DNA of 64,000 nt. Source: Verrucomicrobiota bacterium (GTDB lineage Bacteria > Verrucomicrobiota > Verrucomicrobiia > Chthoniobacterales > UBA10450). The stretch spans positions 1 through 64,000 of the forward strand of contig QHNH01000009.1 in NCBI GenBank assembly GCA_003218375.1, written 5' to 3'. The notes below the pieces were generated by a model, which was not told the origin of the DNA, did no database searches, and saw only the letters and a list, made by a program, of their open reading frames with translations. The first letter of the stretch is position 1; each line of letters opens with the position of its first letter. This document shows positions 7,580 through 56,542 of this stretch, one piece after another. A program made the translations under genes and the position numbers.

Positions 7580-8280
7580 GCGCTTTTCGCCGGCGTTTTA
7601 CTCTGCGCCTCCTTGACCGCCGCGACGATGTTCGGATACGCGCCGCAACGGCAAAGATTGCCGCTCATCCATTCCCTGATTTCGGCGTCGTTCTTCGTGT
7701 GGTCTTCCGCGATGCACGCGACCGCCGAGCAAATCTGGCCCGGCGTACAGTAACCACATTGAAATCCATCGTGCTCGAGGAACGCCGCCTGGACCGGATG
7801 CAACTCGTCTCCTTTCGCCAGACCTTCGATCGTCGTGATCTCGTCGCCTTGGTGCACGATCGCGAGGCTCAGACACGAATTTATCCGCCGGCCATTCACC
7901 AACACCGTGCACGCGCCGCATTGGCCGTGGTCGCAACCTTTCTTCGAACCGGTCAGCAGCAGATGTTCCCGGAGCGCATCGAGCAACGTCGTCCGCGGAT
8001 CGACTTCGAGGATGTGCTCTTTGCCGTTGATCTTAAGCTGAAACTTCGTGACCACGGCACTCGCGACGCCCGGAGTCGCTGTGCTTTCGGCCGCTTCGAC
8101 CGATCCGATTCCCATCAACGCCGGCCCCAGGCCGATCGCCGCGCTGGTTCCGGCGACTTGTTTTAGAAAATAACGCCGCGTCTCCGGGCTGCCAAAGATC
8201 AAAATTTCATCCAACCCGCCAGTTGGGTCCATCCCGGCAAGTTCGTCCGGATGGCGCGGCTCGGAAGCTTCCTCATTCAT
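7576..8280 (-). CDS. paoA: Aldehyde oxidoreductase, 2Fe-2S subunit with Tat leader (PaoA/YagT-like)
   Basis: The product is 234 residues. A twin-arginine leader (ETRRYFLKQVAGTSAAIGL, from about residue 33) lies behind an unusually long polar N-terminus and predicts export of the folded complex to the periplasm. Two 2Fe-2S motifs follow: CDHGQCGACTVLVNGRRINSC, split as C-x4-C-x2-C-x11-C, and a second set in CGYCTPGQ and NLCRCGAY. It is the first gene of the operon paoA-paoB-paoC-xdhC-mocA. The promoter must lie in the 243-base divergent gap shared with the permease gene. Confidence 0.92.
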   Translation of the reverse strand: MNEEASEPRHPDELAGMDPTGGLDEILIFGSPETRRYFLKQVAGTSAAIGLGPALMGIGSVEAAESTATPGVASAVVTKFQLKINGKEHILEVDPRTTLLDALREHLLLTGSKKGCDHGQCGACTVLVNGRRINSCLSLAIVHQGDEITTIEGLAKGDELHPVQAAFLEHDGFQCGYCTPGQICSAVACIAEDHTKNDAEIREWMSGNLCRCGAYPNIVAAVKEAQSKTPAKSA

Positions 8281-8419
8281 CCCGTTCTTGAAATCGCAAT
8301 TGCGACCGGATTCGGTCGGCGATTAAATCGAACGAGTGGAAATCGGGAAAACTTTGCGAATCACCACCCGGAAGGCCGGGCGCGCTGGAGAAAAACCCGC
8401 GCAGAACAAGCGCTACGGC

Positions 8420-16965: not shown

Positions 16966-19089
16966 AAGGCGAACCCGTTGAAGCCGCAGCGCGTTGCCGA
17001 TCACCGAAACCGAACTCAAGCTCATCGCGGCGCCGGCGATGATCGGGCTCAGGAGCCATCCGAAAAACGGATAGAACATGCCAGCGGCGATCGGGATGCC
17101 GAGCGCGTTGTAGATGAAGGCGAAGAAAAGATTCTGCCGAATGTTGCGCATGACGGCCCGGCTCAAATGGATCGCCTGGACGATGCCGTTGAGATCGCCT
17201 TTCACCAGGGTGATGCCGGCGCTTTCCATCGCCACGTCAGTCCCCGTGCCCATCGCGATTCCGACATCGGCCGCGGCGAGCGCGGGCGCGTCGTTAATCC
17301 CGTCGCCAGCCATGGCGACGATCGAACCATCTCGGCGCAAGGCTTCGACGCGCTCGTGTTTATCTTTCGGCGCAACGCCCGCTTCGACCTGGTCCAATCC
17401 AAGTTTCTTCGCGACGGCCTTTGCGGTGCGCTCGTTGTCGCCGGTCAGCATGATCACTTTCAAATCGAGCCGCTGCAGCTCGCGAATCGCTCCGGGGGTG
17501 GATTGCTTGATTGGATCGGAAATAGCGATGAGGCCGGCGGGCCGGTCCGCAATCCCGACGAAGATCACGGTCTGGCCTTCCGCCTGGAGATCGCGCGCCT
17601 GCGCCTCGAAATTTTCCAAACCAGAGATGCCGTTTCTGCGCAGGAATTCGGGCTGACCGACCACGACTTGAGTCCCATCTTTGCTCCCGATCACTCCTCC
17701 GCCCGTCGTCGAAGAAAAATCTTGGATGTTTTCAATTGCGAGTTTCCGCTCGCGCGCTGATGCCACGATCGCCCCCGCCAGCGGATGTTCGCTCTGCTGC
17801 TCGACCGCTGCCGCGGCCGCGAGCAAATCGTCTTCTGTCTGTCCGGCGGCGGCGATGATCTTCGTCACGCGCGGTTTGCCTTCCGTTAGCGTCCCGGTTT
17901 TGTCGACCACGAGCGTCGTCACTTTTTCCATCAACTCGAGCGCGCCCGCGTTTTTCACGAGAACTCCCGCGTGCGCCCCGCGGCCGACCCCAACCATGAC
18001 GGACATCGGCGTCGCCAATCCGAGCGCGCACGGACACGCGATGATCAGGACGGCGACCGCGTTCACAATGGCGTGGGCGAGGCGCGGCTCGGGGCCGAGC
18101 CAGATCCACGCCGCGAACGTGATCACCGCGGCGAGCAGAACGGCCGGCACGAAATAACCGGATACCTTGTCCGCCAACCGTTGGATCGGGGCGCGGCTGC
18201 GTTGGGCTTCGGAAACCATCCGCACGATCTGGGCGAGAACCGTCTCGTCGCCCACGCGCTCGGCTTCCATCACGAAGCTGCCGGTATTGTTCAATGTCCC
18301 GCCGATCACTTTGTCGTTAGCGCCTTTTTCGACCGGGAGCGCTTCGCCGGTGATCATCGATTCGTTCACCGTCGTGCGGCCCTCGAGCAAGACTCCATCG
18401 ACCGGAATTTTTTCGCCGGGACGAACGCGGAGGCGGTCGCCCGTTTTCACTTCGGTCAATGCGACATCCTGTTCCGTTCCGTTTCGAACGACGCGCGCGC
18501 TCGGCGGGGTGAGGTCGAGCAAACTCCGAATCGCGCTTCCCGTCCGGCGGCGGGCCCGCAATTCGAGCACCTGGCCGACCAGAACCAGCACGGTGATCAT
18601 GGCCGCGGCTTCAAAATAAAGGCCCGGCTTTTCGTGGTGCGCCATCGCAGGCGGAAACAAACCGGGGAAGAAAAGAGCGACGCAGCTGTAAAGCCACGCG
18701 ACGCCGACCCCGATAGAGATGAGCGTAAACATGTTGAGATGCCGGCTCAGGAACGAACGCCAGCCCCGGACGAAGAACGGCCAACCCGCCCATAGAACCA
18801 CTGGCGTGGTGAGCGCGAATTGAATCCAGCGCGATGCGTCGCCGGACAGCCAGGGCGGCGCGTTCGGAATCAGATGCGACATCGCGAGGAGAAAAACCGG
18901 CAGGGTGAAAGCCGCGCCGATCCAGAGACGGTGCGTCATGTCGGTTAATTCCGAGTCGTCGTCGTCCGGGCCCGCCGCGGAAATTGTTTTCCGCTCGAGC
19001 GCCATTCCGCAGATCGGGCAATCGCCCGGTTTGTCCCGCTCGATCTCGGGATGCATCGGGCAGGTGTAGACGTTTTCTGGTACGCTCAT
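16963..19089 (-). CDS. Copper-translocating P-type ATPase with N-terminal YHMP metal-binding domain
   Basis: The protein has 708 residues. The N-terminal heavy-metal domain ([24 protein letters not shown]) replaces the usual CxxC HMA domain. Eight membrane helices follow. Motifs in order are the actuator TGE ([13 protein letters not shown]), the intramembrane [11 protein letters not shown], the phosphorylation site [11 protein letters not shown], and [10 protein letters not shown] near the end. The CPC motif points to Cu+ export from the cytoplasm. It is transcribed away from the phosphoribosyltransferase gene. No copper regulator is adjacent. Confidence 0.94.
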
Positions 19090-23862: not shown

Positions 23863-23890
23863 CGGACATCATCGAGCGGAGTTTCCCGAA

Positions 23891-23930
23891 ACGAAAGCCC
23901 CCGCCGAATTTCTCCGACGGGGGCCCGTTT
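23891..23930 (-). terminator. Strong intrinsic terminator downstream of the Cys-rich peptide gene
   Basis: On the minus strand GCCCCCGTCGG and CCGGCGGGGGC-type arms enclose a short AT loop and are followed by CTTTCGTTT. The stem (about 23897-23924) lies some 25 bases after the 42-residue gene. It also separates that gene from the alcohol dehydrogenase downstream. Confidence 0.7.
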
Positions 23931-23949: not shown

Positions 23950-24078
23950 TTACTCCGGGCAGCACGGCATCTTGATCGGGCAGCAGCTCTCGTCGCCGCA
24001 GCAATCAGCCGAACGCGAAGTCGCGCTCGCTGTGCCGACCAGCGCCAGGGCCGCTACGATCGCCAGTAGATATTTCAT
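23950..24078 (-). CDS. Very small secreted Cys-rich protein (42 residues)
   Basis: A strong ribosome site (GGAGGA) precedes ATG 24078. The product has a clear signal peptide (MKYLLAIVAALALVGTASA). It leaves a mature part of about 23 residues with six cysteines in three pairs (CC-GDES-CC-PIKMP-CC-PE). The gene is followed by a strong hairpin terminator, so it forms a complete small transcription unit. Paired cysteines suggest metal binding or disulfide bonding in the periplasm. No family is recognised. A second secreted Cys-rich gene lies just upstream on the same strand. Confidence 0.75.
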   Translation of the reverse strand: MKYLLAIVAALALVGTASATSRSADCCGDESCCPIKMPCCPE

Positions 24079-24150
24079 GTGAAATCCTCCTGTTGAGTTC
24101 CGTTTCTCTCGTCCTTCAAAATGCGGACGAGCCGACGCGATCCAGCAGGA

Positions 24151-24495
24151 TCAGGCGCGCGGCGGTGGAACCGGAGGACGTTGCGAGCGGCTGTGCTCGG
24201 AAGAAATGTAAGCGGCAAAAGTTTCGTCGCCGACCGGCGGATAAACGAACGGCGTGGTGAAGCCGGCGAAAAGCGCGAGGCCGAAAGTGCAGAGAGCGCA
24301 ACACTGTTTGTCCGGATCCGGCTTCGGCGCGTGCCGGTCGCAATCGCGGGTCGTCGATTCCGGTTTCGTTTTCGCGCAGCAGCTCGTCTTCTCGGCTTGC
24401 GGAACGGGAGCGGAAGCCCGGGACGGAACGGCGGCGACCGCGATCGAGCAGGAGATGAGCAGGCAGAGCAGGAATCGCAACCAAGTCGCTCTCAT
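24151..24495 (-). CDS. Secreted Cys-rich hypothetical protein
   Basis: The product is 114 residues from ATG 24495 (a GTG is one codon upstream). A signal peptide (LRFLLCLLISCSIAVAAV) is followed by a Cys-containing segment (KTSCCAKTK, RDCDRH, KQCCALCTFG). A hydrophobic stretch (GLALFAGFTTPFVY) and a Pro-rich basic tail ending PPVPPPRA come next. It may be anchored in a membrane by the second hydrophobic segment. The 42-residue Cys-rich gene follows 72 bases later on the same strand. Metal or redox function is only suggested by the cysteines. Confidence 0.65.
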   Translation of the reverse strand: MRATWLRFLLCLLISCSIAVAAVPSRASAPVPQAEKTSCCAKTKPESTTRDCDRHAPKPDPDKQCCALCTFGLALFAGFTTPFVYPPVGDETFAAYISSEHSRSQRPPVPPPRA

Positions 24496-24628
24496 CACAG
24501 GCCTAGCTTACCATCTGTTGCCCGGAGCGATCAACCCTCGCCTGAAAATCCCGCCGCGGGAACGCGCGCTTGAGTCCCGCGGCAGAAATAATGATGATGC
24601 GCGGGACGAGACGAAGTTTTCTTAGACC

Positions 24629-25576
24629 ATGAACACTCCTCCTCCTCCGTTGCCGCCGCGTAATGTCGTTTTGACGATGATGCTCGGCGTGCTGGTCGCG
24701 AACGCGATCGGCGGTGCTTTGCTTTTCGGGGTCGTGTGGCTGGTCGGCGCTTACAAGAATTCCGACATTCCCACATTCGTCGCCTGGCCAAGTTTCTTTC
24801 TGATCCCGTTCGTTGTCGGACTCATCGCCGCGTGGTTCTGGCGGCGGATTTATCGCACCATCGCCTGGAGCACGCTCGATGCATTCTTCGTGACGCTTGT
24901 CGGCCTCGCCGCGGCCGCGCTCATCCTGCGAGAAGGTGTCGTCTGCCTAGTGATCGTGTCGCCGGCGCTCTATGTTTTCATCCTTTGCGGAATACTGCTG
25001 GGTCGCCTCTGCTTCCGGCCGAACTATTCCAAACTTCAGCTCACGATCTTTCCGTTGCTCGCGCTCGTCACGCTCAGTGAATCGCTCTACCACTCCGAAC
25101 AGCAAGCGGTCGTCACCGATCGCATTCTGATCCACGCGCCGCCAGCAAAGGTCTGGCCGCACGTCCTCGCGTTCCCCGAAATTCCCGATCCGCCCAGCTA
25201 CTGGATCTTCCGGCTCGGTCTGCCTTATCCGACGCAGACCACCAACGGGGGGAATTTTGTCGGTGCCGATCGGCAATGCATTTTCAGCAACGGCGTCCTC
25301 ATCAAAGAGCGAGTCGCAGAGTTCGTCCCGAACGAGAAACTCACCTTCGATGTCGCCGAGCAACCGACTGATCCCGAAGCCTACGGACACATCACGCTCC
25401 ACCGCGGGCAGTTCGTTCTGCAGGATAATCACGACGGCACCACGACATTGATCGGCTCAAGCTGGTATACCCTGCACGTCAGTCCCCGATGGTATTTCGA
25501 TTTGTGGACGGGCGACATGACCCGCGCCGTGCATCTCCGCGTGATGAACCACATTAAAGAATTGTCGGAACGGTAG
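24629..25576 (+). CDS. Membrane protein with C-terminal SRPBCC (START-like) domain
   Basis: The 315-residue product has an N-terminal Pro-rich start and four membrane helices (about residues 13-145). A cytoplasmic or periplasmic SRPBCC-type domain follows from about 165: VTDRILIHAPPAKVWPHVL, then FVPNEKLTFDV and GTTTLIGSSWYTLHV, ending in the long helix VMNHIKELSER. Such domains bind hydrophobic ligands. The ligand is unknown and no operon partner is evident. Confidence 0.75.
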   Translation: MNTPPPPLPPRNVVLTMMLGVLVANAIGGALLFGVVWLVGAYKNSDIPTFVAWPSFFLIPFVVGLIAAWFWRRIYRTIAWSTLDAFFVTLVGLAAAALILREGVVCLVIVSPALYVFILCGILLGRLCFRPNYSKLQLTIFPLLALVTLSESLYHSEQQAVVTDRILIHAPPAKVWPHVLAFPEIPDPPSYWIFRLGLPYPTQTTNGGNFVGADRQCIFSNGVLIKERVAEFVPNEKLTFDVAEQPTDPEAYGHITLHRGQFVLQDNHDGTTTLIGSSWYTLHVSPRWYFDLWTGDMTRAVHLRVMNHIKELSER

Positions 25577-26673: not shown

Positions 26674-26747
26674 TGGCTACCCCGCATGGATTCGAACCAT
26701 GAATAACGCCTCCAAAGGGCGCTGTGTTACCGTTACACCACGGGGTA
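26674..26747 (-). tRNA. tRNA-Gln (anticodon TTG)
   Basis: The 74-base gene folds fully. The acceptor stem TACCCCG pairs with CGGGGTA, followed by discriminator G and an encoded CCA. The D stem is GTGT/ACAC, the anticodon stem GCGCC/GGCGT with loop CTTTGGA (anticodon TTG), and the T stem CATGG/CCATG with loop TTCGAAT. It reads Gln codon CAA. Its 3' end faces the DUF3800 gene. Confidence 0.96.
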
Positions 26748-54768: not shown

Positions 54769-55668
54769 ATGAAACGCATTTTTGTCCTGGCAGTCTTGTG
54801 CATCGGCGCAGCTCTCACCGCCCACGCCAAACTCAAAATCGTCGCCACCCTTCCCGATCTCGGTTCGCTCGCGCGGGAAGTCGGCGGCGACAAAGTTGAT
54901 GTCACTGTCCTGGCGAAACCGACCGAGGACTCCCACTTCGTCGATGCCCGCCCGAGTTTCGTCGTGCAACTGCGCGACGCCGATGTGCTCATCGACGGCG
55001 GCGCGGAGCTTGAGATCGGTTGGCTCCCGCCACTCCTCCAAAATGCGCGCAATCCCAAGATCGAAGTGGGAAAACCCGGCCGGGTCCAGGCCTCACAAGG
55101 CGTCCGCCTCATGAACGTGCCCACGAACGCGACCCGCGCCGCCGGCGACGTCCACGCGCTCGGCAATCCACATTTCGTGGTGGATCCGATTATCGCGAAG
55201 ACCGTCGCGCTCCACATCGCGCAAACCTTCAGCGCGATCGACGCGCCGAATGCCGCGGCCTACGACGCCAACTACAAGAAATTCGAGGCAGCCATCAACG
55301 CGAAGCTCCAGGAATGGGGAACGGCGATGTTGCCGTTCAAGGGGCAGAACGTCGTCGCTTATCACGACTCCTGGGTTTACTTCGCGCACCGGTTCGGTTT
55401 GAACATCGACACGTTCCTGGAACCGAAGCCCGGCATCCCGCCTTCGCCGTCGCACCTCGCCGAGGTCATCGAGAAAATGAAGGCGCAGAAGATTAAGGCC
55501 ATCATTGTCGAGCCGTTTCACGATCGAAAAATCGCCGAGAAAGTGGCCACCTCGACCGGCGCGAAGGTGGTTGATTTCGCGCAATATCCCGGCGGCCTTC
55601 CAAACACGGACTCATATGTGAAACTGATTGACCGGTTGGTCGCAAATCTCACCGCCGCACTGAAATGA
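54769..55668 (+). CDS. znuA: Metal (Zn/Mn) ABC transporter substrate-binding protein
   Basis: The 299-residue product has a signal peptide (IFVLAVLCIGAALTAHA). It has the cluster A-I metal-binding fold: LKIVATLPDLGSLAREVGGD, ligand histidines in EDSHFVDARPSF, GNPHFVVDP and VAYHDSWVYFAHRFGL, and an acidic ligand near FAQYPGG. It lacks the long His-rich loop of many ZnuA proteins. It delivers zinc or manganese to the permease encoded next. Which ion cannot be told. Confidence 0.9.
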   Translation: MKRIFVLAVLCIGAALTAHAKLKIVATLPDLGSLAREVGGDKVDVTVLAKPTEDSHFVDARPSFVVQLRDADVLIDGGAELEIGWLPPLLQNARNPKIEVGKPGRVQASQGVRLMNVPTNATRAAGDVHALGNPHFVVDPIIAKTVALHIAQTFSAIDAPNAAAYDANYKKFEAAINAKLQEWGTAMLPFKGQNVVAYHDSWVYFAHRFGLNIDTFLEPKPGIPPSPSHLAEVIEKMKAQKIKAIIVEPFHDRKIAEKVATSTGAKVVDFAQYPGGLPNTDSYVKLIDRLVANLTAALK

Positions 55669-55711
55669 TCTGTCCGCAGTTCTCTGGCCTAACGACTGAA
55701 AGGAACGACGA

Positions 55712-56542
55712 ATGAGAATGATGTGGGAACTAATGTTCTGGCCCTGTGCGGCCTGCATCCTTTTGCCGTGGCTCTTGGTTTACCTCGGCCTTCACGTCGT
55801 TCAACGCGGCATCATTTTCATCGACATCGCCATGGCCCAGATGGCCTCGCTCGGTATCTGCCTGGGAGTGCTTCTCGATTACGAACCGGAAAGCGTGATG
55901 TCCTACGTCCTGGGACTCGGCGTGACCTTGCTCGGCGCCGCGATTTTTTCCGTTACCGGAAAACGCGCCAGCCAGGTGCCGCAGGAAGCTGTCATCGGGA
56001 TTAGCTACGTCGTCGCAGCAGCCGCGGCGATTCTGCTCCTCAGCCGTTCCGCCCACGGGAATGAAGAAATTCGGAACATGCTCGTCGGCGACATCACCGT
56101 CGTGAGCGCCGCCGAGGTTTGGAAATGCTTCGCGGTGTTCGTCGTGGTCGGCATCGTTCATTTCATTTTCCGGAAAAATTTTCTGCTCGTCTCGTTCCAA
56201 CGCGAAGAAGCCTACGTCCGCAAATGGCGTGTGCGTTGGTGGGACTTTTTCTTTTACGCGACGTTCGGCATCGTGGTGACGATCTTCGTCCGCGTCGCCG
56301 GGGTCTTGCTCGTGTTCAGTTACTTGATTGTGCCCGCCGTCTGCGCCGTGACGCTGGCGCGCCGAATTTCGATGCGGCTGCTGATCGGCTGGGGAATTTC
56401 GCTCCTGGGTGGGATCGGCGGAGTGTACGTCTCTATCCGGGGCGATTTCCCTTCAGGCGCCGCAATCGTCTGCACTTTTGGCGCGCTGCTTATCATAACA
56501 TCGCTGATCGCACTGGTGAGGCCGCGAGTGACGCGGGCATAG
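55712..56542 (+). CDS. znuB: Metal ABC transporter permease
   Basis: The product is 276 residues from ATG 55712, with AAGGA seven bases upstream. Eight or so hydrophobic helices contain the ABC-3 permease pattern (RGIIFIDIAMAQMASLGICLG near the start, then GVLLVFSYLIVPAVCAV). It forms the membrane channel for the ZnuA-type protein 43 bases upstream. No znuC ATPase gene lies in this cluster or elsewhere in the window. A trans-encoded ATPase must supply energy. Confidence 0.92.
   Translation: MRMMWELMFWPCAACILLPWLLVYLGLHVVQRGIIFIDIAMAQMASLGICLGVLLDYEPESVMSYVLGLGVTLLGAAIFSVTGKRASQVPQEAVIGISYVVAAAAAILLLSRSAHGNEEIRNMLVGDITVVSAAEVWKCFAVFVVVGIVHFIFRKNFLLVSFQREEAYVRKWRVRWWDFFFYATFGIVVTIFVRVAGVLLVFSYLIVPAVCAVTLARRISMRLLIGWGISLLGGIGGVYVSIRGDFPSGAAIVCTFGALLIITSLIALVRPRVTRA

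Follow-up and report, generated by a model that had tools for sequence, protein, structure and literature searches.

Leaders of the DUF2946 type control copper transporters, oxidases and chaperones, mainly in the Proteobacteria and Bacteroidota, and two of them, CutF and CruR, detect copper while they are still nascent chains. CutF of Rhodobacter capsulatus (cutFOG) has a Cys motif and a proline tail and is followed by a stem-loop that masks the Shine-Dalgarno (SD) sequence before cutO; its copper-responsive leader control is supported experimentally, and in tests the proline tail by itself did not stall strongly (PMC9973294). CruR (Bp2923) of Bordetella pertussis is a DUF2946 leader in which a CXXC motif and an RAPP motif lie at a conserved distance, the 162-bp intergenic region that follows cruR includes an unstructured Rho-loading stretch, and the regulation is unaffected by the loss of EF-P (PMC9426467). 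CruR arrests in vitro, and known RAPP-type leaders monitor secretion, some of them preceding thioredoxin-like genes (PMC12992588).

The locus described here lies in the window, the whole stretch of 64,000 nucleotides of DNA that was analysed, and is best explained as a new variant of copper-sensing leader control that has a new family of secreted six-Cys peptides as its output, with copper, stalling and the direction of the response putative. No report of the two-gene unit, or of a peptide of this kind preceded by a DUF2946-type leader, was found in the open-access literature. In the window, the order is putative promoter, ORF B, ORF A and terminator, divergent from the next gene at 24629, with the following features.

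24529–24534, minus strand: -35-like hexamer TTGATC, part of a sigma-70-like pair upstream of ORF B
24505–24510, minus strand: -10-like hexamer TAAGCT, 9 nt upstream of the ORF B start codon
24151–24495, minus strand: ORF B, 114 aa, putative diverged DUF2946/CutF-like leader with CC...C...QCCxxC and a C-terminal RxxRPPVPPPR
24157–24180, minus strand: codons of the putative arrest motif R-P-P-V-P-P-P-R, within which GUCCUCC (24173–24179) is predicted to pair with the ORF A SD
24108–24131, minus strand: conserved intergenic hairpin CTCGTCC...GGACGAG, with a conserved position relative to the ORF A ATG and compensatory changes in the inner pairs
24086–24091, minus strand: ORF A SD AGGAGG, 7 nt upstream of the ATG and overlapping the GGAGGAU strand (24084–24090)
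23950–24078, minus strand: ORF A, 42 aa, predicted secreted Cys-pair peptide, MKYLLAIVAALALVGTASATSRSADCCGDESCCPIKMPCCPE
23889–23930, minus strand: intrinsic terminator of the B-A unit, stem GCCCCCGUCGGA-GAAA-UUCGGCGGGGGC followed by a U-rich stretch

The features that a sequence-only reading had reported for this locus were borne out. The 42-residue ORF A, its strong ribosome site, its leader (a signal-peptide-like N-terminus, by eye) and its three CC pairs read as described, the CC-x4-CC-x5-CC pattern being exact in the translation, and translation also confirmed the adjacent 114-residue ORF B with its CC and CCALC motifs on the same strand. The strong terminator claimed after ORF A has a folding energy of -29 kcal/mol, compared with an average of -16.5 in shuffles (z -4.8); it was missed by a simple terminator scan. 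In the relatives listed, a GC-rich hairpin is found 3′ of ORF A.

The -35 and -10 hexamers are 18 nt apart in the window and 16–18 nt apart in most relatives. When ORF B start codons were chosen by length, the -10 of the best sigma-70-like pair ended 6–10 nt before the chosen start in 27 of 29 loci, the individual matches being mostly non-significant. As the -10 is so close to the start of ORF B, the mRNA is predicted to be nearly leaderless, and the promoter-like pair upstream together with the terminator after ORF A make ORF B and ORF A look like one short unit.

ORF B and the DUF2946 leaders

The N-terminus of ORF B is hydrophobic and signal-like, by eye. The DUF2946 profile (PF11162) aligns to the whole of ORF B (profile positions 2–115 of 117, E 8.8e-4), and because the score of 20.5 bits is below the Pfam gathering cut-off of 23.7, ORF B is treated here as a diverged relative of DUF2946 and not filed as a member. 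At E≤0.01, DUF2946 is matched by eight of 28 ORF B homologs. Scanning the window's genome in six frames revealed no DUF2946 match besides ORF B.

Across 29 homologs, which are approximately 97–126 aa long, conservation is strong only in the CC, a further Cys, QCCxxC and R-x-x-R-P-P-V-P-P-P-R, and the middle of the protein is almost free to vary. The proline motif is followed by one or four residues and then the stop codon, and lies 37 residues from the last Cys in most loci and 33–34 residues in most of the others. All 29 have PP within the last 15 residues, the tail in the window being PPVPPPR. Set against the rules for CutF-like proteins (PMC9973294), ORF B is under 150 aa, at 114 aa, and has PP within its last 15 residues.

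ORF B resembles CutF, a short exported DUF2946-type leader, in lying directly upstream of its partner gene and in having a Cys motif and a proline-rich C-terminus. A short structured intergenic region hides the SD of the next gene after CutF, and in the window one is predicted to do so after ORF B. They differ in that CutF precedes a Tat-exported multicopper oxidase whereas ORF B precedes a 42-aa Cys-pair peptide, in the Cys motif (CxxxC in CutF, CC...QCCxxC in ORF B), and in the location of the anti-SD, which is intergenic for CutF and inside the codons of the ORF B proline motif in the window. In CruR, also of the DUF2946 type, the spacing between a Cys motif and an R-proline motif at the C-terminus is likewise conserved, but the latter is RAPP whereas ORF B has RPPVPPPR, so that ORF B falls outside a definition based on RAPP. 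Control by CruR involves Rho-dependent termination upstream of a gene for a TonB transporter; here, the peptide gene has a terminator of its own, and the spacer before it is structured and 72 nt long. The RAPP/RGPP arrest peptides (RQH family, ApdA/ApdP; PMC10987492, PMC12992588) are small exported proteins encoded upstream of the regulated gene, and resemble the putative leader ORF B in having, close to the very C-terminus, prolines that follow an Arg. The putative arrest motif RPPVPPPR was not seen among the motifs tested in PMC10987492 and PMC12992588.

Hence, ORF B is marked here as a putative regulatory leader of the CruR/CutF kind that would control ORF A, on the basis of the pattern of conservation, the DUF2946 match, the proline tail near the stop codon, and a structured intergenic RNA that is predicted to mask the SD in the window.

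ORF A and the distribution of the pair

The predicted mature part of ORF A is approximately 23 aa and contains six Cys in three CC pairs. Metallothioneins and other small thiol metal-binding peptides form the comparison class. ORF A resembles them in having six Cys within so short a predicted mature peptide, and is unlike them in its predicted secretion, in having its Cys in CC pairs only and in having no significant match to any Pfam family.

The family set consisted of 83 genomes, and profile searches covered 213 genomes of the order and a sample of the phylum. At the thresholds used, ORF A was matched in 42 and ORF B in 39 of the 83, the ORF B homologs matching over their full length. Loss of the Cys pattern in relatives had been named beforehand as the outcome that would speak against the sequence-only reading; in the event, the CC pairs are nearly invariant among the ORF A matches, in about half of the family genomes. 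Codon position 3 is the most variable in homologs of ORF A and ORF B alike. The homologs, the near-invariant CC pairs and the third-position variation indicate that both ORFs are more than chance.

Both ORFs are nearly confined to one Chthoniobacterales family; elsewhere in the order there are a few distant ORF B-like leaders, and in the phylum sample almost nothing. In a closer ORF A alignment against named genomes, the relatives with ORF A are Chthoniobacterales/Spartobacteria MAGs, of the Verrucomicrobiota. A match to ORF A in Alistipes (L174), at 57 % across 28 residues within the signal region, is likely to be due to chance. ORF B had no match in the named genomes and was not found in the plasmid collection.

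The two-gene unit is present at about 33 loci in the family. ORF B is directly upstream of ORF A at 33 of 37 ORF A loci (E<1e-6; the family plus G007, with one A-like copy of the two in G042, the unpaired one, not counted). The four loci without an intact adjacent ORF B are in G035, where ORF A is at a contig end, in G079, which has a decayed pair (L092, ~8048–8419) with a readable RPLVPPPRG tail and the ORF A start lost, and in G028 and G076, where no ORF B was seen. G025 has two diverged pairs on separate contigs (L062 and L063).

Two genomes from another family of the order, G159 and G158, encode more distant leaders with the tails EEPPVPPPRAG and EAPPQPPPKV, and downstream of these are other secreted Cys-rich peptides, MKTKISLAALAAIVLTVVGFATAAPREMAAPSCCTPGAECCGGACCK and one of 63 residues with CC pairs. 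Leaders of this type are therefore paired with Cys-rich peptides beyond the one family as well. In L093 (ORF B at 1668–2015), a frame ending KKTRKNCPMNDKKECNCGKDCGC lies just upstream of the leader and may be, by eye, a further Cys-rich peptide. L153, L156 and L157 contain a different, second kind of small leader, with HPCxxCK and a tail resembling PPxPPPR, upstream of a secreted protein of about 350 aa that starts CDLCxC. Similar leaders are in L151, L152 and L155, and the window's own genus has one HPCxxCK copy (G020). They look like another family of arrest-type leaders.

The intergenic RNA and the ORF A ribosome site

The ORF B stop and the ORF A start are separated by 72 nt in the window and by 56–96 nt in relatives. 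The 3′ end of the conserved hairpin (CTCG.../...CGAG) is 26–33 nt upstream of the ORF A ATG in 28 of 29 loci. A plain MAFFT alignment misplaced the 3′ arm in several rows and the arms were anchored with a custom script. The inner pairs covary, with 113 of 125 paired versus 79 in shuffles, a count biased upward since the arms were selected for pairing. For that reason, the folding of the unselected spacer is a fairer test, and at each of the 29 loci its fold is more stable than the shuffle mean (mean z -1.7). Searching Rfam at gathering scores revealed no known RNA in the intergenic region.

In the window, the region as a whole folds at -44.7 kcal/mol (z -3.5), and GUCCUCC in the RPP codons pairs with GGAGGAU of the ORF A SD. 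Opening the SD is predicted to cost 8.4 kcal/mol, against 4.3 kcal/mol in shuffles and 4.5 kcal/mol when the motif codons were replaced with synonymous ones drawn from local usage (p 0.013). The duplex between motif and SD is -13.6 versus a mean of -8.2 with synonymous codons, and none of 150 such sets was as strong. Over 23 nearer loci the excess in duplex strength gave p 0.004–0.007, though it is absent at some loci, and the relatedness of the 29 loci makes the p-values optimistic. SD masking does not exceed that in shuffles at about half of the loci. The RPPV codons are the anti-SD of ORF A in the window and several relatives, whereas in four distant loci the predicted anti-SD is near the ORF B stop codon instead. 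GTT encodes the Val of PPV in 17 of 25 loci, whereas its share of Val codons is 22 % in long ORFs nearby and 33 % in the rest of ORF B.

Proposed control of ORF A and neighbouring genes

We consider that ORF B is probably a copper-responsive arrest leader of the CutF/CruR type that controls translation of ORF A, a secreted metallothionein-like peptide. Ribosomes would first translate ORF B, on an mRNA with almost no untranslated leader, and the ORF B signal sequence would engage the secretion machinery. By the time the ribosome reached the C-terminal RPPVPPPR, the Cys cluster would be just emerging from the exit tunnel, given that the last Cys is mostly 33–37 residues before the motif. Copper bound there would alter, and in the favoured sign prolong, the pause at the proline tail. 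The paused ribosome would occupy the RPPV codons and free the ORF A SD, allowing ORF A to be made; without the pause, the RPPV:SD structure would re-form and ORF A would stay low. ORF A would then be exported, trimmed to approximately 23 residues and bind Cu(I) in the envelope as a minimal metallothionein. The conserved unit, its conserved motifs, the hairpin, the RPPV:SD complementarity and the terminator are observed, whereas stalling of the ribosome, copper as the ligand, the pause as the ON state and metal binding by ORF A are inferred. The pause site and the RNA switch would coincide in the window, where the RPPV codons make up the anti-SD. More tentatively, and with somewhat less than even confidence, one stretch of about nine nt may be both part of the code for the arrest motif (R-P-P-V) and the anti-SD of the next gene, such that a metal-sensing nascent-chain pause unmasks a new family of secreted six-Cys metal-binding peptides, forming a lineage-specific copper switch.

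EF-P, which relieves polyproline pauses, is encoded in the window's genome and may make polyproline pausing weaker there. Its presence, the sub-threshold DUF2946 score and the untypical tail, which is not the RAPP shown to arrest, argue against the leader model, as do the small share of homologs that match DUF2946, the uneven SD masking among loci and the lack of strong stalling by the CutF proline tail alone.

The genes nearby include some with links to metals. ORF A is immediately followed at 8 of 29 loci by a gene whose product, a secreted protein of some 500 aa, contains a heavy-metal-binding domain (PF19335, HMBD). In the window, a copper-translocating P-type ATPase (CopA; TIGR01511, 601 bits against 397) is encoded at 16966–19089, but it is weak context as it is 5 kb from the pair with opposite-strand genes between. 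Cation-efflux genes are within 6 kb in three other loci. The plausible role of ORF A as a small secreted thiol-metal binder fits the HMBD/CopA context.

A CruR-type sign, in which the leader arrests when copper is scarce to turn ORF A on and copper releases the ribosome to turn it off (by Rho or re-folding), ORF A then being a peptide for copper acquisition or delivery, appears unlikely. CruR is a DUF2946 leader that works in this way and arrests in vitro (PMC12992588), and the RPP-containing tail of ORF B is close to RAPP. However, the B-A spacer is short (56–96 nt) and structured, in contrast to the 162-bp cruR spacer with its unstructured Rho-loading stretch, and ORF A resembles a sequestering peptide, which suits induction by metal.

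That the leader instead senses export capacity or oxidative folding (the Sec/Dsb state, via the Cys cluster or the signal sequence), with ORF A as a thiol/redox peptide, is quite unlikely. The CC pairs of ORF A could form disulfides, and secretion is what RAPP-type leaders monitor, some from a position before thioredoxin-like genes (PMC12992588), but the DUF2946 relatives precede copper genes and the recurrent neighbour here is the HMBD protein, with no Sec, YidC or thioredoxin-like genes seen, by eye, among the recurrent neighbour clusters.

The sequence-only reading had suggested that both proteins may be metal or redox effectors. This stands for ORF A as a plausible metal binder, and gives way for ORF B to a regulatory role. 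Signal-like N-termini and conserved Cys in both ORFs would suit an operon of two secreted metal- or redox-active Cys proteins without regulatory coupling, yet the best-conserved non-Cys feature of ORF B is its extreme C-terminal proline tail, its middle being near-free, the RPPV codons complement the ORF A SD beyond synonymous expectation and the intergenic hairpin covaries, making this very improbable. That ORF A is a disulfide-containing antimicrobial or signalling peptide is scarcely credible, small, secreted and Cys-paired though it is, as the neighbour clusters revealed no recurrent processing, immunity or export genes adjoining it and the paired leader belongs to a copper-leader family.

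The copper-responsive leader reading would place DUF2946-type leader logic in soil Verrucomicrobiota, with control exerted over a 42-residue peptide, a type of product that annotation tends to miss. If it is correct, a secreted mini-metallothionein would be a new output for such leaders, and the design would be compact, with the stalling codons doubling as a strand of the regulatory RNA. The unit would be a minimal two-gene system for dissecting metal sensing by nascent chains, and a Cys cluster combined with a C-terminal PPxPPPR could serve as a rule for finding other unannotated metal-responsive small proteins.

Elsewhere in the window, 30 kb from the pair, are zinc uptake genes for a ZnuA-type binding protein and an ABC-3 permease (54769–56542, plus strand). 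A gene for a DUF3800 protein (PF12686; 25646–26494, plus strand) adjoins a DUF3800-VIII RNA (Rfam RF03075; 26500–26565, minus strand), which is followed by a tRNA (26677–26747); the name of the RNA family itself records the association with DUF3800.
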